DNA from: an uncultured Lachnospiraceae bacterium
GTDB taxonomy: Bacteria; Bacillota; Clostridia; Lachnospirales; Lachnospiraceae
Direction: 5' to 3'
Assembly (NCBI GenBank): GCA_949738465.1
Contig: CATJBQ010000097.1
Span: forward strand, 1 to 45,616
Length of the DNA stretch: 45,616 nt
The first letter of the stretch is position 1. Every line of letters begins with the position of its first letter. The notes under the pieces were generated by a model. It was not told the origin of the DNA. It saw only the letters and a program-made list of their open reading frames with translations, and made no database searches. A program made the position numbers and the translations under genes. Below, one piece after another: positions 17,121 to 45,610 of the stretch.

Positions 17121-20100
17121 CTAATTCTTATACTCCGCATAAATCGACGTTACATACACCGTCGCTCCACTTGCATTCATGAAACGGTAAATGGTATGGT
17201 TGGGCCCGGCTTCAAAAATATTCTGGCCATCCTTGTTCTGTGGCGCCGTCGCTCCACCAGTTCTGGGCAGAACCACCTTCGTCCACTGACCCGGCGTCAG
17301 ATCTGTATCGCCGCACCACCAGCCGCCGGCTTTCACATTCGCATCGTCAGTATAAGCATAGTAGTATACCTGGTCATAATCACGGATATCATTCGTCACC
17401 GCGCCCGGTACGCTGAATGCCGCCTCGTTATCTGTAATCGTCAGCTTCATGGAACCGGCTGCGTCTCCGCCTTTCACCAATGCGTCCCCACCGTCATATT
17501 TTTTGGAAGCATCATATCCTGCACTCACGCCAGCAGTATGGGCAGTGCTTAGATCCACACCCTGAATATCATTTACCTTGGCCGGCGCAGGCTTCATTTC
17601 CGCATACAGCGAGGTCACATAGAACACGATCCCATTTGTCCCTCCCATAAAACGATAGACGAAATTGTCCGGTCCTGCGGCAAAGATCGACTGGCCCGTC
17701 GGATTCTGCGGCCCCATCTCCTTTGTCAGCGTAACCCTCGTCCACTGGCCCGGGGTAAGGGGCGTATCGCCGCACCACCAGCCGCCGGACTGGGTATTTT
17801 GGGCATCGGTATACACATAGAAGTATACCTTATCGTATCCGCTGATATCCGAAACTATGGCTCCGTTCACAGCAAAGCCTGCTTCTCCGCCGCCAACCGT
17901 CACCTTCAGCACGCCGCTGTCGCTGGCCTTTACCAGCGCGTCATCGCCATTATACTTCTTATCCGTCACATATGCAACTGTTCCGCCGTCATGCTGCGGT
18001 GCAATCTGGGCAGTATTCACTTCCAGCACCTTCACCCCCTGGGTTCCGGGGTTCCGGTACAAAGCCTCAACTGTATACAACTGGCCGCCCCGATAGGTAA
18101 AGGTATCTCCCTCAATCCGCTTTCCATTGACCGCAAATCCCGCTGCCTCCAGCCCGGTAGGCGCCTGTGCGGCCTTCAAGGTCACGGTTTCTCCATATTT
18201 GTAGGCGTTCTTGTCTGTCGTACATCCCTTCAGGGCAATATGTCCCTCCACCGGATCCGGCGACAGCTTCACTGCATACAGAGAGGTTACATAGAAGGTT
18301 GTGCCTTCTGCCATGGGCGTCGCATAGTCATTGCTCATAAAGCGGTATACAAAGTTATCCGGCCCGTTTTCGAAAATTTTACCGTAACCTACGTTCACCA
18401 ATGCGTTCCGGTCTGACAGGGTTACCTTTGTCCACTGACCTGGCGTCAGGTCAATATCTCCGGTCCACCAGCTTCCGGCCCTCATATTCTGGGCATCCGT
18501 ATACACATAGAAGTATAATTCATCATATCCGCTAAGATCCTTCTCCAGTGCGCCGCCAATACAGATTCCAATATCCGCTTTCCCGCTGACAGGCGTCACC
18601 TTCAAGACCCCTCTGTCACTGGCTTTCACCAGCTCATCGCTGCCGTCATACTTTTTGTTCGTTACATATTCCGCCGTACCGCAGTCCTCGGGCGCCGGGG
18701 ATACCCATTCACTGTCTGTCTCCTGCACCTTAACGCCCTGCGTCTCAAGGTTCCGGTACCAGGCTTCCACCGTGTATACCATCTCTCCCAGGTAAGTAAA
18801 GGTATTACCTTCGATTCTCTGGCCATTTACCATAAACCCGCCGGTTTCCAGCCCGGCCGGAGGTTCTGCAGCCGTCAATATCACGGTTTGCCCCTTCTTA
18901 TAGCCGTCCCGGTCCGTCTTACAGCCATACAGCTTCATATGATCCTTCACCGGTTCCACCGGAAGCCTCTCCGCATACAGGGAGGTCACATAGCACACAT
19001 CGCCGTCCTTGCCGCCCATAAAACGATACACGAATCCATCCGGGCCTTCGGTAAAGATCAACTGGCCATGAAGATTCCAGGGGCCTACCGCCCGCTGTAT
19101 CATGATCTTGGGCAGCGTAATGCGCGTCCACTGTCCTGGGGTAAGGGGCGTGTCGCCGCACCACCAGGCTCCGGCCTGCAGACCCGGCGCATCGGTATAA
19201 GCGTAGAAATAAACGCTGTCATAACCGCTGATATCGCTGATCAATGTATTGCTGACAGATACGGCGGCTTCCGGCCCGGTCAGCTTCACCTTCAAGGATC
19301 CGGTCTCGTAAGCGCGCACCAGCGGATCATCCCCATCGTACAGCTTCTGCGTTCCGTAACCCTCCGCCCTGGCTCCATCCTGGAACAGAACCTGCTCGCC
19401 GCCTGTACCAAGCACCGGAACGGCATCGGTGGCCGGATTGCACAGAAGCGCTTCCGCCGTGTATTTCTTATTTACGTCTTCCATCACAAAGGTATTTCCA
19501 GCCAAAGGCTTTCCATTTACCACATACAGGATCTTTAATCCGGCAGGCGCCTTGACCGAAGCGGTCAGCGTCACGGTTTCTCCCTGCTGGTAGCTGTCCT
19601 TGTCGGTGATCACATTTTTCGCTGACACACTGGCCTCCTTGGGGCCTGTGGCCTTTGACGCATACAGGGATGTGGCGTAAAATACGTCGCCATCGCTGCC
19701 GCCCATAAACCGGTAAACAAAATTGTTCGGTGTCCCTGTAAAAATGGATTGGCCTGCCAGGTTCTGGGGTCCCATTTCCTTGGTCAGCGTAATCTTGGTC
19801 CACTGTCCCGGGCTTAAGGGCGTATCGCCGCACCACCATCCGCCGGACCGGGCGTTCTTTCCCTCGGTATACACATAGAAATACACCTCATTATAGTGGC
19901 TGATATCGTCAATACACGCTTCCGCCACAGCTACGCCGGCCTCTGGACCGCCCACAGTCACCTTCATAGAACCGTTTTCACTACCGGTCACCAGCTTGTT
20001 GGGCCCATCATAAGCCCGCTGCGTGGTATAAACGGCGCTTTTTGCCTCGTGCTGCAGGCTGAAATCATCGGTATTGGCGTTCACCACCATAAGCGCTTCC

Positions 20101-23100
20101 CCGCTGACGCTGGCAGGATCCTTGCAATAAGCCTTCACAGAGGACAGCCAGAACTCCGTCCCTTCAGTACAGCCTGTGCCAAAAAGGCGGGCGATCATTC
20201 TTCCTTCTTTTACTTCGCCATTCTTATTGGGCCATAGATCTCCCAAGATAGGATTGGTCAGCACCAGATTTTCCTCATTCAGCCGGACATAAACCTTCGT
20301 CCATTTTCCCGGCCGCAGGGGCGTATCCCCACACCACCAGCTTCCGGCCTGTGTTCCCTCCGTGTTGGTATACACGTAGAATACCACATAATCATAGCCG
20401 GTAAAATTATAGCTTCTTAAAAATACGCCGTTGTCTTCCCCGGATACCGTTACCTTCACGGAACCCTGATCCTCCCCATGGGACAGATTCCGGTCATATT
20501 CCACCCGGCTCTCGCCTGCTCCCAGGCCCTCCACGCCAAATTCGTTGATGTAAAGCACGGTATTTTTCGGCCGGTAGAAGGCTTCGATCACATACTCCCG
20601 ATCCAGAGCTTCGATGCTCAGCGCATCGGTGCGCTCTCCGTTGATGGAGAAATAATCCAGGATCATCCCCTCCGGCGCCTCCGGATTCAGATGAATGGTA
20701 TCGCCCTGCATATAGCTGCTCTTGTCGGTAGAACAATTCTTTGTGGTTACCGTTACCGGCCCGTAGGCGCCGGCCTGCACGGAAGAAACCCAGAAGCTTA
20801 CGCCCTTCCCGCAGCCTTCGCCCATAAACCGCAGCGCCAGGCGTCCCCGGTAGGGCTGTCCCTTATGCCATTTATTGGGGCAGTAATCCGCACCTTTTTC
20901 ATCTTTCAGATAGACGTTTTCATCCGCAAGCTTGATTCTTACCCGCGTCCATGCTCCCGGCTTTAAGGCCGTATCGCCCAGCCAGTAGGAACCGGATATG
21001 GTGTCCTGGGCTTCTGTGTATACCCAGTAATCCACATAATCATAGCCGGTAAAATCAAATATATTTAAAAATACCGCTACATCGCCCTCCTTGGCTGTCA
21101 CCCGGATCGCTCCGTGGTCGCCGCCATGGGAAATACTGTTGTCAAAGGCCACCTCATTGCCATCCGGGTTGATGGTGGGGACTGCCACCGGATCCGGCTC
21201 CATGATAACACCGGATCTTTTCTGCACCGTCATCCGTGCGGACGCTTTCAGTTTCCCGCTGTTCTCCGGGTGATCCGCCTGATAGGTCAGCCGCAGGTTG
21301 ACGGCTCCGCCATACGGAATGGTGACATTCCTGCCCTTTGCAGAGAAAGAATCTCCACCCTCGCTGACAGCCGTAAGCCAGGTCTTTGCACCCTTTACCG
21401 CATTTCCTTCCACATCCTTCACCTGCACCAGCGGCGCCTGGTAGATGTCTCCGTCGATGACGGCTATGGCCTCATAATCGGCAACCTGCAGATAATATTT
21501 CTTCGCCTCATAGACAAAACCGGTACGTTCCTCGCCGGATACTGCCTTCAGGTTTTTAATTTTTGGAGTGGCAACGCCTTTTTGCTCCACCCGGGCCCCA
21601 TAGCCAAACCAGTCTCCCCGGACCGGCTTGTCGACGATGGCAGTCTTGCCGATGAAAAATTCATCCACAAAGAGGTAGATGTCGCCCTCCCGGCGGATCA
21701 CCTGCACATTGGCGGGATTTGAAGATGAGGCGTTCATAAATCGCTCCACCACCTCCTGGGGCAGCACAGAGACGGTATCCTCCCAGGCCCCCTCTCCATA
21801 CCATTTGCATACGGAATCGGAGTAATGATTCACCTGGAATTCAATGATATGCTCCGTCCCCAGCATCACTGCCACCCCAAAGAGCTGGTTGGTTTCCAGA
21901 TCCGGATCGTAGCCGCCGGTGACGTCAAAGCTAAGCGCCCAGTTCTTTTCTTCGTTGATACCCTTGGCCACGCAATTGTTCCCCGTCAGCCAGGCCTCGT
22001 TCCCCCACCATTTAGGCTCGTAGCTGTAACGGCCCCAGGTCATGGTATCGTAGGACAATTGATCCACGTAACGCACCGTAATGGTATGCTTTGCTTTTGT
22101 GGGGATAAAGGTGTCCCCGGTCAGCGGGATATCGTCTGCCAGGAAACAGTCTACCACCTTGCCTTCGATTTCCTCGGCCCGTAGCTGCACCGTCTCTCCC
22201 TGCCAGTAGGTGGTGCGGTCCAGAAGCACATGCTCGCCGGCGATCAGCTCGCTTTCCTCCCTGCGGACAACCTTCATCGGAGAAAAATACAACGTTCCGC
22301 TTGGAGCTACTTCTCCGCTGTAATCAAACAAAATACGAATGACCGTCCCGGAGATATCCCCGGCGCTGATGGTTTTGATATTGTCTGTTCCTACATTTCC
22401 GTTTTCACCGCCCCAGCCGTTCACCGGCCAGACCACCCGGGTCCATTCCCCGGCCTTTACTACCTGGTCATTCCACCAGCGCGATCCCATAATGACATCG
22501 GCCTCGCCGTCATTATAGACGTACATTCCCATTTCCTGGCAGTTGCTGATATCCAGGATTGCCGGCGTCTTCATAACCACGTAGCCTTCATTAGCCTCGG
22601 TTTCCTCACCGCTGAAGGTCAGTTTGTAGGAACCGCTTTCTTCGCCATATACCCGGTCCGGCTCCTGCTCCTTCGACACAAACTCGCCGGTATATTTGCT
22701 GCTCTCTAAAAGTTCCACCTGCCTTACGCCAAATTCTTCCCCAAAATACAGGACCGTATCCGCCTCAAAATGTTCCGGGCCGTCTATGCTGCGGGCATAC
22801 TCATATTCATTGGCGTTGCCGGCGTTATCCTCCACATGGATCCGGATGATATAGGAGCCGCTTTCCTGGTCCACCAGAAACTGGTTATTTTTCAGCGCAA
22901 CCTCCTGCTCCTTCCCGTCCTCCGGAAGATAATATACACCTGTCCAGCATTTTGAGATCTCCGCATCCCCCTCTACCGTATAGGAGGGCATTTTATAGGC
23001 ATTTCCTGTAATATAGAAGTCCGGCAGCGTCCCGGTAAGCTTGATGGAGGGCGCCGTCCGGTCGCCAAAGTCTACCTGTACCGTCTCGTCCCTCACATTC

Positions 23101-23435
23101 TCTACACCTGCCGTGTATACAAACTCATAGATTCCTGGCGTTTCCACCATCAGGGAATCCCAGGAGGCGTCCAACGCCTCCCCGTCGGGACCTGTCACCG
23201 ACTGCAGATCCACCTGGTAGCCGGCCAGGATCATCCCGTTGGCGTCCACCACCTCATACTCCGGCAGCAGATAGGTGCCAAGGCTCTCCTCCACCACACC
23301 GTCGGGTACATTGATGAAGGCGGTGATGATATCCTTAATGCCGCGAACGGCGAAGGTAATTCCGCCGGCTGCCAGTACCACCACCAGGATTCCCAAACCA
23401 ATGATCAAACCTTTTTTCTTTTTTAATTTTTCCAT
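17121..23435 (-). CDS. Giant (2104 aa) N-terminally anchored surface protein with about eight repeated beta-sandwich modules
   Basis: N-terminal TM KKKKGLIIGLGILVVVLAAGGITFAV; eight W-motif copies (e.g. GGWWCGDTPLTPGQWTR, GSWWTGDIDLTPGQWTK, GSYWLGDTALKPGAWTR, GSRWWNDQVVKAGEWTR) alternating with TDK..Y..G..V.L.A modules. Confidence 0.85.
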   Translation of the reverse strand: MEKLKKKKGLIIGLGILVVVLAAGGITFAVRGIKDIITAFINVPDGVVEESLGTYLLPEYEVVDANGMILAGYQVDLQSVTGPDGEALDASWDSLMVETPGIYEFVYTAGVENVRDETVQVDFGDRTAPSIKLTGTLPDFYITGNAYKMPSYTVEGDAEISKCWTGVYYLPEDGKEQEVALKNNQFLVDQESGSYIIRIHVEDNAGNANEYEYARSIDGPEHFEADTVLYFGEEFGVRQVELLESSKYTGEFVSKEQEPDRVYGEESGSYKLTFSGEETEANEGYVVMKTPAILDISNCQEMGMYVYNDGEADVIMGSRWWNDQVVKAGEWTRVVWPVNGWGGENGNVGTDNIKTISAGDISGTVIRILFDYSGEVAPSGTLYFSPMKVVRREESELIAGEHVLLDRTTYWQGETVQLRAEEIEGKVVDCFLADDIPLTGDTFIPTKAKHTITVRYVDQLSYDTMTWGRYSYEPKWWGNEAWLTGNNCVAKGINEEKNWALSFDVTGGYDPDLETNQLFGVAVMLGTEHIIEFQVNHYSDSVCKWYGEGAWEDTVSVLPQEVVERFMNASSSNPANVQVIRREGDIYLFVDEFFIGKTAIVDKPVRGDWFGYGARVEQKGVATPKIKNLKAVSGEERTGFVYEAKKYYLQVADYEAIAVIDGDIYQAPLVQVKDVEGNAVKGAKTWLTAVSEGGDSFSAKGRNVTIPYGGAVNLRLTYQADHPENSGKLKASARMTVQKRSGVIMEPDPVAVPTINPDGNEVAFDNSISHGGDHGAIRVTAKEGDVAVFLNIFDFTGYDYVDYWVYTEAQDTISGSYWLGDTALKPGAWTRVRIKLADENVYLKDEKGADYCPNKWHKGQPYRGRLALRFMGEGCGKGVSFWVSSVQAGAYGPVTVTTKNCSTDKSSYMQGDTIHLNPEAPEGMILDYFSINGERTDALSIEALDREYVIEAFYRPKNTVLYINEFGVEGLGAGESRVEYDRNLSHGEDQGSVKVTVSGEDNGVFLRSYNFTGYDYVVFYVYTNTEGTQAGSWWCGDTPLRPGKWTKVYVRLNEENLVLTNPILGDLWPNKNGEVKEGRMIARLFGTGCTEGTEFWLSSVKAYCKDPASVSGEALMVVNANTDDFSLQHEAKSAVYTTQRAYDGPNKLVTGSENGSMKVTVGGPEAGVAVAEACIDDISHYNEVYFYVYTEGKNARSGGWWCGDTPLSPGQWTKITLTKEMGPQNLAGQSIFTGTPNNFVYRFMGGSDGDVFYATSLYASKATGPKEASVSAKNVITDKDSYQQGETVTLTASVKAPAGLKILYVVNGKPLAGNTFVMEDVNKKYTAEALLCNPATDAVPVLGTGGEQVLFQDGARAEGYGTQKLYDGDDPLVRAYETGSLKVKLTGPEAAVSVSNTLISDISGYDSVYFYAYTDAPGLQAGAWWCGDTPLTPGQWTRITLPKIMIQRAVGPWNLHGQLIFTEGPDGFVYRFMGGKDGDVCYVTSLYAERLPVEPVKDHMKLYGCKTDRDGYKKGQTVILTAAEPPAGLETGGFMVNGQRIEGNTFTYLGEMVYTVEAWYRNLETQGVKVQETDSEWVSPAPEDCGTAEYVTNKKYDGSDELVKASDRGVLKVTPVSGKADIGICIGGALEKDLSGYDELYFYVYTDAQNMRAGSWWTGDIDLTPGQWTKVTLSDRNALVNVGYGKIFENGPDNFVYRFMSNDYATPMAEGTTFYVTSLYAVKLSPDPVEGHIALKGCTTDKNAYKYGETVTLKAAQAPTGLEAAGFAVNGKRIEGDTFTYRGGQLYTVEALYRNPGTQGVKVLEVNTAQIAPQHDGGTVAYVTDKKYNGDDALVKASDSGVLKVTVGGGEAGFAVNGAIVSDISGYDKVYFYVYTDAQNTQSGGWWCGDTPLTPGQWTRVTLTKEMGPQNPTGQSIFAAGPDNFVYRFMGGTNGIVFYVTSLYAEMKPAPAKVNDIQGVDLSTAHTAGVSAGYDASKKYDGGDALVKGGDAAGSMKLTITDNEAAFSVPGAVTNDIRDYDQVYYYAYTDDANVKAGGWWCGDTDLTPGQWTKVVLPRTGGATAPQNKDGQNIFEAGPNHTIYRFMNASGATVYVTSIYAEYKN

Positions 23436-38437: not shown

Positions 38438-39268
38438 TCACTTCACAATGATCTTACTTAAGCGCACGCCGTTTCCATTTTGGGCGAAGGACCATACTCC
38501 CTTACAACCCCGCCCGTATTCTTCGCCCAGAAGCTTCGCCAGATATCCCGTCAGAAGCGCCGGCGGAATAAACTGGGACAGCAGGGCCGTGTATGTATAT
38601 CCGGGCCTGGGCAGTATCACCTGCTCCACCTCGGCATTGGGAATCTTCACCGGGGTATCGGTAATAAGCAGCGTCGGCCGCTTCATGTACCCCACCGCAT
38701 ATTCCAATACCTCCTCCGTACGGCTTCTTGCTTCATCCGCCCGGGAGGAAATGAGAATCGTTCCTATTTTCTCCACATTTTTCAGAAAAAAGTTGAGATG
38801 CAGCCATTCCTCCGTATTCACGCTCATGGCATATTTCCCAACCGCTTCATATACCTTCGCCTGCCCATAAAGCGCCGCCGCGAAATCCGGCCCGCTCCCG
38901 ATAAAATCAAACGCCTCCATCTGGCTCCAGCGCTGTGCAAGATCCAGCATCTGTGCGTTTAGAGCCTCCATTCCGTTTTCCAGGTCATAGGAATGACGGC
39001 ACAGATCCATCCGGTAATCCATGGCCTCATCCATCGTATAACGCCCGCGTACCTCGCCGATCCGGATTGCCAGAAGCAGCAGCGCCAGAACGGATACCAT
39101 ATAGCTTCTTACCCCGGGCGAGCTTGGAAAAGGCGGAATATCCAGCTTCAGGACCCTGGTGGACGCATTCCCCAGCAGGGAATCCGGATTCCCGGTAATC
39201 CCCAGAACAAAGCCTCCCCTGCTGCCCACACGCCTGGCGGCCTCTGCGATCCTGGCCGCATTTCCAGT
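38438..39268 (-). pseudogene. 5'-truncated SIS-domain sugar isomerase-like gene
   Basis: Frame begins at TGNAARIAEAARRVGSRGGFVLGITGNPDSLLG and runs to a normal-looking C-terminus; N-terminal part replaced by the nucleoside hydrolase fragment. Confidence 0.65.
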
Positions 39269-39426
39269 ATTTTCAAGGCATTTGCCGCCGTCACCTCCAC
39301 CGGATAATTGCCGTTTACCGTGGTGATTGCCTTCACCTCCAGCAGCGGAGATTTCACAGCCATCACAATGGCCATGGAGTCATCCATTCCCGGATCGCAG
39401 TCCAGAATAATTTTTTTCCTGCCCAT
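39268..39426 (-). pseudogene. 5' fragment of a nucleoside hydrolase (IunH-like) gene
   Basis: MGRKKIILDCDPGMDDSMAIVMAVKSPLLEVKAITTVNGNYPVEVTAANALKILE, then out-of-frame fusion to the SIS gene. Confidence 0.75.
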
Positions 39427-40639: not shown

Positions 40640-41833
40640 ATTGTTTTCCTATACCGCGCCGTGTTTGACGAAGCTCAGAACCCCATCGGACTGGTGGGCG
40701 GCGGCGTCTATACCAGCGGGCTGGTAGAGACGCTGGACGGATTGACGCTCAACGGCTTAAAAACCACACTGACTATTTTTTTCGATCGGTACGTTGATCG
40801 CTTTGTGTATTGTCTCCCTCTTTATTATTCAGCGGCTGACAAAACCATTGAAAACCATCGAAAACCATCGAGAACAGCATTGTCGCCTTGCAGAATTTTG
40901 ATATAACGGAAAAGGACGACATCCGCAAATACAGCAGCCGGAAGGATGAGGTTGGAAGCATGACAACCGCCACAGAGAGTATGATCCTCTCTCTGCGGGA
41001 CATTATTGATACTCTGCAGATTTTCTTCTTCCATTGAAAATACCAATTCCATCGTATTAAATGTGGACGGAGAGATTGGTAAGATCAACACCGTGGTTCA
41101 AGAAGTGCTGGATAATATTTCTTCCTCGGCCGGCGCCAGCCATGAAGTGATTCTCAGCGCCCAGTCTATGAAGGAGCAGACGGATTCCGCCTATGACAAC
41201 GGGCAGGATACCCTGGCCAAGACCAAGACTTCCGTGCAGGAGGCCATTGCCAGCCTCCGGGAGCTTTCCAGAATCAATGACCTGGCCGCCCAGATTTTCA
41301 GTATTTCTGAGCAGACGAATCTCCTGTCGCCAAATGCCACGATAGAGGCTGCAAGGGCAGGTGAATCCGGACGCGGCTTTACCGTTGTAGCCAGTGAGAT
41401 CGGGGATCTGGCCGGTACCTCCAGGAGTACGGCCTCCGCAATCCAGGCGCTCTGTAAGGAGGCAAACTTAAGTATAGAAACCGCGAATTCCTGCTTTGAC
41501 TCCATCATCTGTTTTATTGAGGAAGATGTGGTGAAGAAATTCAAGGATTTCGCCGAGAAATCAACAAAATACAGTCCGGAGGTAGACGCAATCCGCAAGC
41601 AGCTTGATTTTGCGGAAGACCTGGTACAGCAGTTATGCCAATCCGTCACGCATGTTTCAGAAAACATGGAAAATGTAAAATGTATTACCCATGAAAACCA
41701 ACTGGCAATTGATGCGATTATCGGGAAAAATGAAGGTACTTCCGACATTGCCAATGTGATTCAGGAGCTGGCCGAAAAGAACAAGGAGCTGGCTGATCAA
41801 TCGGAAGGGCTGATTGATAAATTTATAAAATAA
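40640..41833 (+). pseudogene. Methyl-accepting chemotaxis protein remnant, truncated and frameshifted
   Basis: Frame pieces GTIVFLYRAVFDEAQNPIGLVGGGVYTSGLVETL, IGTLIALCIVSLFIIQRLTKPLKTI and [33 protein letters not shown] lie in different frames; shift at T7 run near 40776. Confidence 0.8.
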
Positions 41834-41858
41834 TATCCTTACTTTCTCACCAGAAAGA

Positions 41859-41895
41859 GAAATCCCCAGGCTGCCCGCCTGGGGATTTCTTTTTT
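41859..41895. terminator. Bidirectional terminator
   Basis: GAAATCCCCAGGC-tgccc-GCCTGGGGATTTC followed by TTTTTT. Confidence 0.8.
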
Positions 41896-41913: not shown

Positions 41914-43023
41914 TTACAGGTAAATTTCCTTACCGGTCTCAGCGGACTTGTAGATCGCCTCCAGAATCTGGGTAACCACAAACGCCTGCTCCGGCTTTAC
42001 AAGCGGCTCGCCGTCATTGATGATGGCATCCATCCACTGCTGCTGTTCCTTTACGGCCTCGGCTGCAGCGCCGCCTTCGAAGAAGTCAACAACGCCTGCG
42101 GGAGAGATGGTCTTCTCCATCAACTGATTGTGCTCCGTGAAGTTGTAGATCAGCTCGTCGTTGGGGTAGCTTCCGCCATGATGGATCTCAGCGCCTGCCT
42201 TGGTTCCACACAGGGTGGTGGATGCTTCCATGGACTTCAATACATTCAGCGCCCAGGATGACTCCAGGTAAATAGTAGCGCCGTTCTTCATCTTGATCAG
42301 ACCAAACGCGGAATCCTCTACCTCAAAGGTCTCCGGATCCCAGGGGCCAAATACGTTGCCTTCCGGACCGTCCGCCTGGCGTCCCAGCTTGTAGAATACC
42401 TGGCCGCTTACGGATACCGGCTCATAGTTGTCCATCATCCACAGGGTGATATCCAGCGCATGGGTTCCGATATCGATCAAGGGACCGCCGCCCTGCAGAG
42501 CCTTGTTGGGGAATACGCCCCAGGTAGGAACTGCACGTCTGCGCAGAGCATGTGCTTTCGCGAAGTAGATCTCGCCCAGCTCGCCGTCTGCACAGGAAGC
42601 ATGAAGGGTCTGTGTGTCATCGCGGAAACGGTTCTGATATCCGATGGTGAACTTCTTGCCGGATGCCTTCCAGGCATCGATCATCTTCTGGGCATCCTCG
42701 GTATTGTGAGCCATGGGCTTCTCACACATTACATGCTTGCCGGCCTCAAAAGCCGCAATCGTGATGGGGCAGTGCGCTACGTTGGGAGTACATACATGAA
42801 CCACATCAAACTCGATGCTCTTATCTGCAAGCATCTCCTTGTAGTCGGTGTACACCTTGGCGCCCGGTACGCCATAGTCAGCAGCGGCCTTCTGGGCACG
42901 CTCCTCGATGATATCGCAGAATGCCACCATCTCCGCCTTCTCCGGCATGGTCTTTAAGGACGGCATGTGCTTCTGATTGGCGATACCGCCGCATCCAACG
43001 ATTGCTACTCTTACTTTAGACAT
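41914..43023 (-). CDS. Gfo/Idh/MocA family NAD(P)-dependent oxidoreductase (DgpA-like candidate)
   Basis: VRVAIVGCGGIANQKHMPSL Rossmann motif, HVMCEKPMA, GGGPLIDIGTHALDITLWMM. Confidence 0.9.
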   Translation of the reverse strand: MSKVRVAIVGCGGIANQKHMPSLKTMPEKAEMVAFCDIIEERAQKAAADYGVPGAKVYTDYKEMLADKSIEFDVVHVCTPNVAHCPITIAAFEAGKHVMCEKPMAHNTEDAQKMIDAWKASGKKFTIGYQNRFRDDTQTLHASCADGELGEIYFAKAHALRRRAVPTWGVFPNKALQGGGPLIDIGTHALDITLWMMDNYEPVSVSGQVFYKLGRQADGPEGNVFGPWDPETFEVEDSAFGLIKMKNGATIYLESSWALNVLKSMEASTTLCGTKAGAEIHHGGSYPNDELIYNFTEHNQLMEKTISPAGVVDFFEGGAAAEAVKEQQQWMDAIINDGEPLVKPEQAFVVTQILEAIYKSAETGKEIYL

Positions 43024-43072
43024 AGAATTGTCCTCCTTTTATATAAATTTAATTGCCTCCATTTTATCAGAT

Positions 43073-44122
43073 CTACCGCTCCAGATGGATCGCGTCGCCT
43101 GTTCTGGCAGATTCGCGGATGGCATCCATCATGCAGAGTACCCGGCGCACCTGGGGAGCCTGGATCACAATCTCTTCCTCTCCCTTCAGGGCTTTCAGAT
43201 AATGCTCAAAATAATTGCGGTGGGATACATTTACCTCCGGCAGCGGCTCCTCGTAAAGCAGGCCCGGCTCCGGCGGTCCAAAGCTTCTGGTAGGCCCTGC
43301 CGCCGTCATGGTAATCTTACCTGGAACATTCTCCAGAAGATGTCTGGTATGTACGATGGTACCTTCACCGCCAAAACCATCGATAAATGCACTTCCGCCC
43401 TTACCGCCCACAAACCATGCACGCTTGGGTGACAGGTAGTAGGTTCCCAGTTCAATCTCCGCGGTAATCTGATTCTTAAACTTAATGATAATCTTAAAAT
43501 AATCGTCTACATTCTCATTGATGACATTCTGTACATCGGCAAATACGGTGTCAACCTCGCTGTCCACCATATTCAGGATCTGGTCGATGAGGTGTACGCC
43601 CCAGTCATAAAGCATACCGCCGCCCATCTCCGGATAAATATGCCAGTCGTGCATATTGCCATTCACGCCATAAAGCTGGGACTTAATCAGATAAACGTCG
43701 CCTACCATGTGTTTATCGTAAACTTCCTTCATGATCCGGTAGTCGGTATCCCATCTTCTCTGATGGTGGATGGTGAACAGTACCCCTGCTTCCTTCGTAA
43801 CGGCGACCATCTCGTCAAATTCCGCCACTGACATTGCCGCCGGCTTCTCGCAGATAATATTCTTGCCTGCCTTAGCCGCAAGCTTTACCATCTCAAGATG
43901 GGACGGGTTGGGGGTGGAAATGATTACGGTATTGATCTCATCGATCGCCAGAAGATCCTCTGCCTTGTCCAATACCTTCACACCCTCCGGTGCGTCCGCC
44001 ACCTGTTCGGGATTGGTATCGCATACTGCCACCGGCTCGATCTCGTCGAATGTTTTGAGCATGTTGTAGTGCTCATGGCCCATAAAACCGTAGCCAATGA
44101 TTCCAAATTTCACTTTGCTCAT
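43073..44122 (-). CDS. Gfo/Idh/MocA family oxidoreductase
   Basis: VKFGIIGYGFMGHEHYNML, NIICEKPAAMS, GGGMLYDWGVHLIDQILNM. Confidence 0.9.
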   Translation of the reverse strand: MSKVKFGIIGYGFMGHEHYNMLKTFDEIEPVAVCDTNPEQVADAPEGVKVLDKAEDLLAIDEINTVIISTPNPSHLEMVKLAAKAGKNIICEKPAAMSVAEFDEMVAVTKEAGVLFTIHHQRRWDTDYRIMKEVYDKHMVGDVYLIKSQLYGVNGNMHDWHIYPEMGGGMLYDWGVHLIDQILNMVDSEVDTVFADVQNVINENVDDYFKIIIKFKNQITAEIELGTYYLSPKRAWFVGGKGGSAFIDGFGGEGTIVHTRHLLENVPGKITMTAAGPTRSFGPPEPGLLYEEPLPEVNVSHRNYFEHYLKALKGEEEIVIQAPQVRRVLCMMDAIRESARTGDAIHLER

Positions 44123-44143
44123 GTTCCTTCAACCTCCTTTTGT

Positions 44144-45202
44144 TCAGTCTTCGATCGCTCTGCGCATTGCCTCCTGGTGTCTTCTCACCTGTTCGATACT
44201 GTCAACCTCCGTAAAGTAACGCAGATGCTCCCCACCTTCATACTCAGAGCTTAAATACCCCTTGTATCCGGCTTTCTTATACGCTTCAACAACCTCCGGG
44301 ATTGCCACAGCCGTCTCTACATAGTCCTCGCTGACATGGTAGAACTTCGCATGGGTATGATAAATATAATCAATGTTATCGATGATATCCTGGGGCTCAG
44401 ACCAGGAATAGGTAAAGGAAGATCCGGCATACATCATGTCTGCAGGGCCGCCTCCGGCCTTCTCAACCGCCTCCATCATCTCCTTCATGCCGTTTGCCAT
44501 ACGATATTCCATATTGGCCTTTCCAAGGTCAAGGTCATATTTGATCTTGACAAAGCCTTTTGCCAGCCTCTGGGCATACGCATCATCCACAATTTTGATG
44601 CACTCGTCCTTGGCCCCCATTTTCTTTGCCTTATCGCGGAGCACGCTGGGGATATTTTTACAGAAAATACCCATATCCGGAATAAATCCGAAATGCTTCG
44701 TACCGGTTCTTAAGATCATCTCCATATAGCCGTCTGCCCAGCCGGAATTCAGAGAGAAAGGCGCATGCACCTCAAGGCCGATTCTCACGTCCATCTCTGC
44801 CGCATAGTCCAGGCTGCCTTCGATTACGTCCATAGGAGTGGACACCAGCGTACGCAGATTGTGGAAGCCCAGCAAGGAAGCAAGGCGGATATCGCGTTTC
44901 ATCATATTCACCTGCTCGCCCAGGCTCAGCATGCGGTTGGCATAGATGTGGTTCTCCAGGAACGCATCGTAGCAGGAGGGCTCCAGGTTATACTTCTTCA
45001 GCCAGGTAAACCACTGATCGCGGAACTCCTGCGTCTCAATGGGCATAGGAAAACGCTTAATCATCTGCTCGGCCAGCAGCTCTACGCCAGTGGCGCCTGT
45101 CTTGGCAGTCTCCCGAAGACATCCTTCCAGATCCAATCTCCCATCGTAATATTCGTCCTGATAGCTGTACAGGGAAACACTTCTTTTAATATCGTAGCTC
45201 AT
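44144..45202 (-). CDS. Sugar phosphate isomerase/epimerase (xylose-isomerase-like TIM barrel); candidate C-glycoside deglycosidase alpha subunit
   Basis: TIM-barrel signatures TGATGVELLAEQMI, IGLEVHAPFSL, YHTHAKFYHV, GYKGYLSSEYEGG. Confidence 0.85.
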   Translation of the reverse strand: MSYDIKRSVSLYSYQDEYYDGRLDLEGCLRETAKTGATGVELLAEQMIKRFPMPIETQEFRDQWFTWLKKYNLEPSCYDAFLENHIYANRMLSLGEQVNMMKRDIRLASLLGFHNLRTLVSTPMDVIEGSLDYAAEMDVRIGLEVHAPFSLNSGWADGYMEMILRTGTKHFGFIPDMGIFCKNIPSVLRDKAKKMGAKDECIKIVDDAYAQRLAKGFVKIKYDLDLGKANMEYRMANGMKEMMEAVEKAGGGPADMMYAGSSFTYSWSEPQDIIDNIDYIYHTHAKFYHVSEDYVETAVAIPEVVEAYKKAGYKGYLSSEYEGGEHLRYFTEVDSIEQVRRHQEAMRRAIED

Positions 45203-45214
45203 TTCGCGCCCTCC

Positions 45215-45610
45215 TTACCGAATCTCGAAATCTGTCTCATTGGTCATTTCCATGGGGAATGGCATATAAGACGGAACAATCTTCTGATATGCTGCAATGT
45301 GATGGGTTCCCTTGGCCAGCCCGCCTTCCTTCATTACAGACACCGTAGCAAATTCTCCAAACTCCCAGCGGTAGTCGGAATCCACAACCGTAGTCATCTC
45401 ATCCAGCGTGAAGGTCTCGCCGTTCACCGTAAAACGGATGTCCTCCGGCGCTGCCTTTTCCCCGTCCACAGTCACCTGAATGTCACGCACAATAGAAAGT
45501 GTTACTCCCCGGTAATACTGTGCCTTGAACTGAAACTCATAGCCGATCACTTTTCCGTCCTGTTCGATGTTGCAAAAACCGTCCGGATTAAATACCTGTC
45601 TTCCAGCCAT
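45215..45610 (-). CDS. DUF6379 / CGDB-type protein; candidate C-glycoside deglycosidase beta subunit
   Basis: 131-aa beta-rich ORF (NPDGFCNIEQDGKVIGYEFQFKAQYYRGVTLSIVRDIQVTVDGE...VPSYMPFPMEM) directly upstream of the TIM-barrel gene. Confidence 0.75.
   Translation of the reverse strand: MAGRQVFNPDGFCNIEQDGKVIGYEFQFKAQYYRGVTLSIVRDIQVTVDGEKAAPEDIRFTVNGETFTLDEMTTVVDSDYRWEFGEFATVSVMKEGGLAKGTHHIAAYQKIVPSYMPFPMEMTNETDFEIR

Follow-up and report, generated by a model that had tools for sequence, protein, structure and literature searches.

Known C-glycoside deglycosylation systems and the window operon

C-glycosides withstand ordinary glycosidases, and the gut bacteria that release their aglycones affect uptake in people and animals. 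Several systems with this activity have been described. They include the dgp system of Dorea sp. strain PUE (DgpA, DgpB and DgpC, acting on puerarin) and the dfg system of Eubacterium cellulosolvens (DfgA, DfgB and DfgE, acting on homoorientin). Structures are available for the C-glycoside deglycosidase (CGD) of Deinococcus aerius (8qvc, 8umc) and for DgpA1, DgpA2, DgpB and DgpC from P581a and W974-1 (9m37, 9m39, 9m3a, 9m3b and 9m3d), with the lyase entries released in March 2026; a literature search for the P581a and W974-1 strains found no paper. An earlier survey covered dgpABC clusters in genomes from the human gut (PMC8398226), and four to six CGD pairs have been reported in Catenibacillus (PMC11170127). 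The dgp-type cluster is itself a known kind, and the labels DgpA1 and DgpA2 are already in the PDB.

The window analyzed here, a stretch of 45,616 nucleotides from a gut-type genome of the Lachnospiraceae, carries a four-gene operon (Table 1) that is a relative of the puerarin-degrading dgp system, real but expected. Three enzyme families are common to the window and strain PUE, A1 is 68% identical to DgpA, and every lyase residue that binds the metal or serves as the base is conserved in C; C itself, however, is only 32% identical to DgpC and falls in another clade. The window operon also includes an additional DgpA2-type oxidoreductase when set against strain PUE, which was compared by DgpA, DgpB and DgpC alone. 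The P581a/W974-1 part set is equal to that of the window, with both oxidoreductase types included. Here A2 is 61% identical to P581a DgpA2 and B 41% to DgpB1, but C is only 31% identical to DgpC1 and again in a separate clade. The D. aerius enzyme is the closest solved alpha subunit to C, but it comes from another phylum and its tree link to the clade of C has a support of only 80. The dfg system has chemistry and families in common with the window, with identities of 37% for C and 39% for B, but the Eu-like pair of this genome is on a different contig (C87). For these identities, and for the trees, the known reference sequences were taken from printed HMMER alignments, in which a few unaligned residues are missing.

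Table 1. Genes, intergenic gaps and downstream stem-loop of the operon, in order of transcription.
Feature	Position	Strand	Length or remark
B: CGD beta subunit (CGDB, DgpB-like), predicted	45215..45610	-	131 aa
B-C gap, with the AGGAGG ribosome-binding site of C beside the end of B	45203..45214	-	12 bp
C: CGD alpha subunit (DgpC-like TIM barrel), predicted	44144..45202	-	352 aa
C-A2 gap, with AGGAGG ribosome-binding site	44123..44143	-	21 bp
A2: Gfo/Idh/MocA oxidoreductase, DgpA2-like	43073..44122	-	349 aa
A2-A1 gap, with AGGAGG ribosome-binding site	43024..43072	-	49 bp
A1: Gfo/Idh/MocA oxidoreductase, DgpA-like glucoside 3-oxidoreductase	41914..43023	-	369 aa
Terminator-like stem-loop 3' of A1	41858..41890	-	14 pairs; T tail weak on the minus strand

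Operon layout and genomic setting

The original prediction had described a small CGDB-like protein, a TIM barrel and two Gfo/Idh/MocA oxidoreductases, in that order on the minus strand, and all four genes lie exactly where it had put them. The short gaps between them, together with the AGGAGG motifs that precede C, A2 and A1, indicate that B, C, A2 and A1 very probably form a single operon. Differences between the window and a sibling species are found mostly at third codon positions (34, 19 and 161 differences at positions 1, 2 and 3 in C), as expected for conserved proteins.

The stem-loop downstream of A1 has its T run on the plus-strand side, where it may serve the convergent gene; such terminator-like sites occur no more often than in shuffles of the sequence. 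By eye, the convergent region (40640-41833, plus strand) holds the remains of a methyl-accepting-chemotaxis-like gene in apparently broken frames, and looks decayed or misassembled. Elsewhere in the window, a truncated nucleoside-hydrolase-like start (39148-39426, minus strand) continues into an ORF of a different frame that is SIS-domain-like (38438-39229, with a weak glmS match), a junction at which a deletion, a pseudogene or an assembly error is possible. A 2104-aa ORF (17121-23435, minus strand) has a GH127-like gene on one side and an ABC sugar-transport system on the other, and matches no Pfam family at E 1e-6.

The window makes up all of contig C97 in a draft genome, G000 (263 contigs, 76% complete). 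This contig stops 6 bp ahead of the start codon (ATG) of B, and no other contig of the same genome matches its final 127 bases, so that the region upstream of B cannot be read there. In two sibling genomes (G001 and G002) the operon reads from a DgpA-like gene through genes for two solute-binding proteins and for two permeases to B, C and A2, and then to a second B/C pair and A1, which places an ABC sugar transporter directly upstream of B; in G002, an FGGY kinase and a MATE transporter directly follow. The counterpart of this transporter in G000 is on contig C70, joined to a second B/C pair that is like the second pair of the sibling operons. Two further CGD pairs of G000, one DfgAB-like (C87) and one puerarin-type (C154), bring the additional pairs to three, drawn from three clades other than that of the window. 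Among the siblings, G001, G002 and G003 have five to six CGDB genes each and G004 and G005 have none.

The lyase subunits

B matches the Pfam family CGDB (PF19906, ‘C-glycoside deglycosidase beta subunit’) with an E-value of 4e-40 and 136.6 bits (cut-off 27.6), and a search of 14 control genomes with the same profile gave no matches. It aligns with the solved beta subunits 9m3a, 9m3b, 7bvs and 7bvr, and a fold search with its AlphaFold2 model (pLDDT 81) returned CGD chains at all of places 1 to 17. Profile, solved sequences and predicted fold agree in placing the small ORF within CGDB, the assignment on which the original prediction depended. A literature search for DUF6379 by name returned no papers.

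C matches Pfam AP_endonuc_2, and its best solved match is 8qvc (E 2e-69, 40% identity over aligned residues). Its AlphaFold2 model (pLDDT 90) superposes on the same structure with TM-scores of 0.88/0.96. The first 16 places of the fold search are all CGDs (E 1e-33 to 8e-20), followed by a xylose-isomerase-domain protein and sugar epimerases at E 6e-11 and weaker. The genes of B and C are 12 bp apart, an alpha-beta adjacency as in CGD heteromers.

Residues with known roles can be compared directly. In AgCGD2, Mn is bound by Glu147, Asp179, His269, Lys271 and Glu305, with His149 as the base (His143 in PuCGD) and Glu307 also described (PMC8563793). Mapped through the PuCGD alignment, the counterparts in C are E144, D176, H284, K286 and E320 as metal ligands, H146 as the base, and E322, and all seven are invariant in 22 of 22 aligned sequences. 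The CGD metal site of two Glu, one Asp, one His and one Lys, with the catalytic His and the second-shell Glu, is complete in C; the comparison of metal-binding residues with known C-deglycosidases that had been proposed as a check finds all five ligands conserved. In the beta subunit of PuCGE, Tyr39 is needed for the cleavage of C-glycosides and hardly for that of O-glycosides (PMC10628242). Its counterpart in B is Tyr33, within a YYRG motif and invariant in six of six aligned sequences. The roles of the metal ligands, the His base and the beta-subunit Tyr come from mutagenesis (PMC8563793, PMC10628242), and all are matched in the window proteins. Two other positions differ: Asn144 of PuCGE, which activates the His, is replaced by Ala147 in C (Ala also in 8qvc and P581a DgpC1), and Tyr303 of PuCGE has no clear counterpart in the alignment. 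Sequence, residue set and predicted fold together identify the TIM barrel as a C-deglycosidase subunit, as had been predicted, and B and C as the putative beta and alpha subunits of one CGD.

Two oxidoreductases

A1 and A2 both match Pfam GFO_IDH_MocA (A2 to PF01408 at E 4.5e-24), and the view that they are dgp-type enzymes of this family is borne out by their closest solved relatives. A1 aligns with DgpA (7xr9, a puerarin 3-oxidase) at E 8.5e-170 and 67.6% identity, and is 63% identical to W974-1 DgpA1 (9m3d). The relative of A2 at 61% identity is 9m37, deposited as ‘P581a DgpA2 and isoorientin complex structure’; the identity of A2 to DgpA is only about 30%. A maximum-likelihood tree places A1 in the DgpA clade with a support of 95 and A2 in the P581a DgpA2 clade with an SH-aLRT support of 98, with Listeria 3e18 outside. 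Both proteins have the EKP motif (101-103 in A1, 92-94 in A2) and a D-x3-H motif (DIGTH 184-188 and DWGVH 173-177, respectively).

Distribution in related bacteria

One scan for orthologues of C returned 80 loci with identities of 64-93%, mostly from Lachnospiraceae and also from Clostridiaceae, Oscillospiraceae and one Treponema; cultured carriers among them include strains of Faecalicatena orotica and Mediterraneibacter glycyrrhizinilyticus. In a tree that included six known structures, although not every biochemically characterized CGD, C and representatives of its orthologues form a separate clade with a support of 100, and all six structures lie outside it. Within the sequences compared, this clade is without a solved member, and C lies outside the puerarin-type PuCGD clade and is not grouped with DgpC.

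Neighboring genes in these relatives, identified by tblastn, point to a close association of the two oxidoreductases. Among 40 loci whose flanks each extend over 6 kb or more, 23 have A1 together with an A2-family gene, two have A1 alone, six A2 alone and nine neither. In a sample of 150 genomes of the family, all six with a C orthologue also have A1 and A2 (Fisher p of about 1e-8, without correction for relatedness). The order B, C, A2, A1 recurs at locus L134 around a lyase only 34% like PuCGD, and at locus L136 A1 and A2 neighbor a puerarin-type lyase. This adjacency, even beside divergent CGD types, fits a shared role in the pathway without assigning reactions; A1 and A2 look like partners.

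Other genes are found near C orthologues. A recurrent accessory module (loci L010, L015, L018, L026, L051, L072, L079, L142 and L143) encodes a xylose-isomerase-like TIM barrel (306 aa), an FAD_binding_2 flavoprotein (483 aa), a NuoG-like iron-sulfur/pyridine-nucleotide protein (705 aa) and a NuoF-like 4Fe-4S protein, and at some loci also an FMN reductase; a possible role is the reduction of the aglycone or of the enone sugar that is released. G000 has a 76% orthologue of the flavoprotein (C134:34540-35988) near ABC permeases and an FMN reductase, with no CGD pair seen within 20 kb around it. Beside many CGD clusters there are also proteins of about 800 aa that combine a cupin, an AraC-type HTH_18 and a GH39 domain (L015:4327-6729, L010:4597-7005, L134:4582-6999 and others). 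Their GH39 part could be a glycoside sensor, and such proteins might account for the high number of GH39 described in Catenibacillus; a literature search for AraC-GH39 fusion regulators found nothing relevant.

Proposed pathway and alternative readings

From the gene set, layout, families, residues, folds and co-occurrence we infer the activity of the pathway, its substrate and the order of its redox steps. The operon very likely serves a two-step deglycosylation of C-glycosides, and probably also of O-glucosides, in which 3-oxidation is followed by beta-elimination. A1, probably along with A2, would use tightly bound NAD to oxidize the glucosyl 3-hydroxyl of a plant phenolic glucoside. In the complex of C and B, Mn2+ would be held by E144, D176, H284, K286 and E320; His146 would act as the base that takes the C2 proton, and beta-elimination would expel the aglycone, with Tyr33 of the beta subunit helping to stabilize its ionized phenol. 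The sugar would be released as 2-hydroxy-3-keto-glucal and converted to 3-keto-glucose and then glucose, this last reduction re-oxidizing NADH. Counted against C-glycoside deglycosylation are the identity of C to any solved CGD, at most 40%, and the differences at Asn144 and Tyr303 of PuCGE. The same machinery might also be a general 3-keto-glucoside lyase operon with mainly or only O-glucosides as natural substrates and C-C cleavage as a side ability. PuCGE cleaves both O- and C-linked 3-keto-glucosides, and plant glucosides are mostly O-linked (PMC10628242), so that the natural substrate of the window lyase may be an O-glucoside; D3dgpA oxidizes many O-glucosides (PMC11239390), and the substrate pocket in the CGD clade of C is uncharacterized. 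We nevertheless regard this as rather unlikely, given a beta subunit with the invariant Tyr that in PuCGE matters for C-cleavage, and a nearest solved relative of A2 that was deposited with a C-glycoside. Far less probable still is a role in the catabolism of inositol or sugar acids, in which dehydrogenases of the Gfo/Idh/MocA family likewise cluster with xylose-isomerase-like TIM barrels. The best NCBIfam models for A1 and A2 are indeed inositol 2-dehydrogenases, but with scores of 115 and 124 bits, far below the cut-off (355), this assignment was rejected; a CGDB subunit is present, the fold search separates CGDs from epimerases and isomerases, and the nearest solved relatives of the two oxidoreductases are DgpA and DgpA2.

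Within C-glycoside deglycosylation, the presence of two oxidoreductases can be read in different ways. The isoorientin in the solved relative of A2 suggests that A2 may be a second glycoside oxidase, and DgpA, of the A1 type, acts on puerarin (PMC8563793). A1 and A2, each only 28-32% identical to the reference of the other, could both be glycoside 3-oxidases, with different ranges of aglycones or linkages, and together widen the substrate spectrum of one lyase, which we give a little less than an even chance; both accompany several CGD clades, which is less expected of substrate specialists. Their occurrence together far more often than alone, and beside divergent lyases, would also fit a division of labor in which oxidation of the glycoside falls to one of them and reduction of the liberated 3-keto-glucose or 3-keto-glucal to its partner, and in Agrobacterium a separate Gfo enzyme does reduce 3-keto-glucose (PMC10628242). 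A single DgpA, however, performs both half-reactions by redox cycling with 3-oxo-glucose (PMC11239390), and the isoorientin complex points to A2 as a glycoside oxidase, which leaves such a division doubtful. In its strongest form, the pair would be an obligate relay, a redox-neutral two-enzyme cycle within a CGD clade widespread in Lachnospiraceae and directed at a class of plant glycosides that no studied CGD prefers; this we consider improbable.

Significance for Lachnospiraceae

The clade of C occurs in 80 loci, mostly of Lachnospiraceae, yet has no solved structure in the set searched. Both the substrate of C and the role of the second oxidoreductase can be addressed with four genes.
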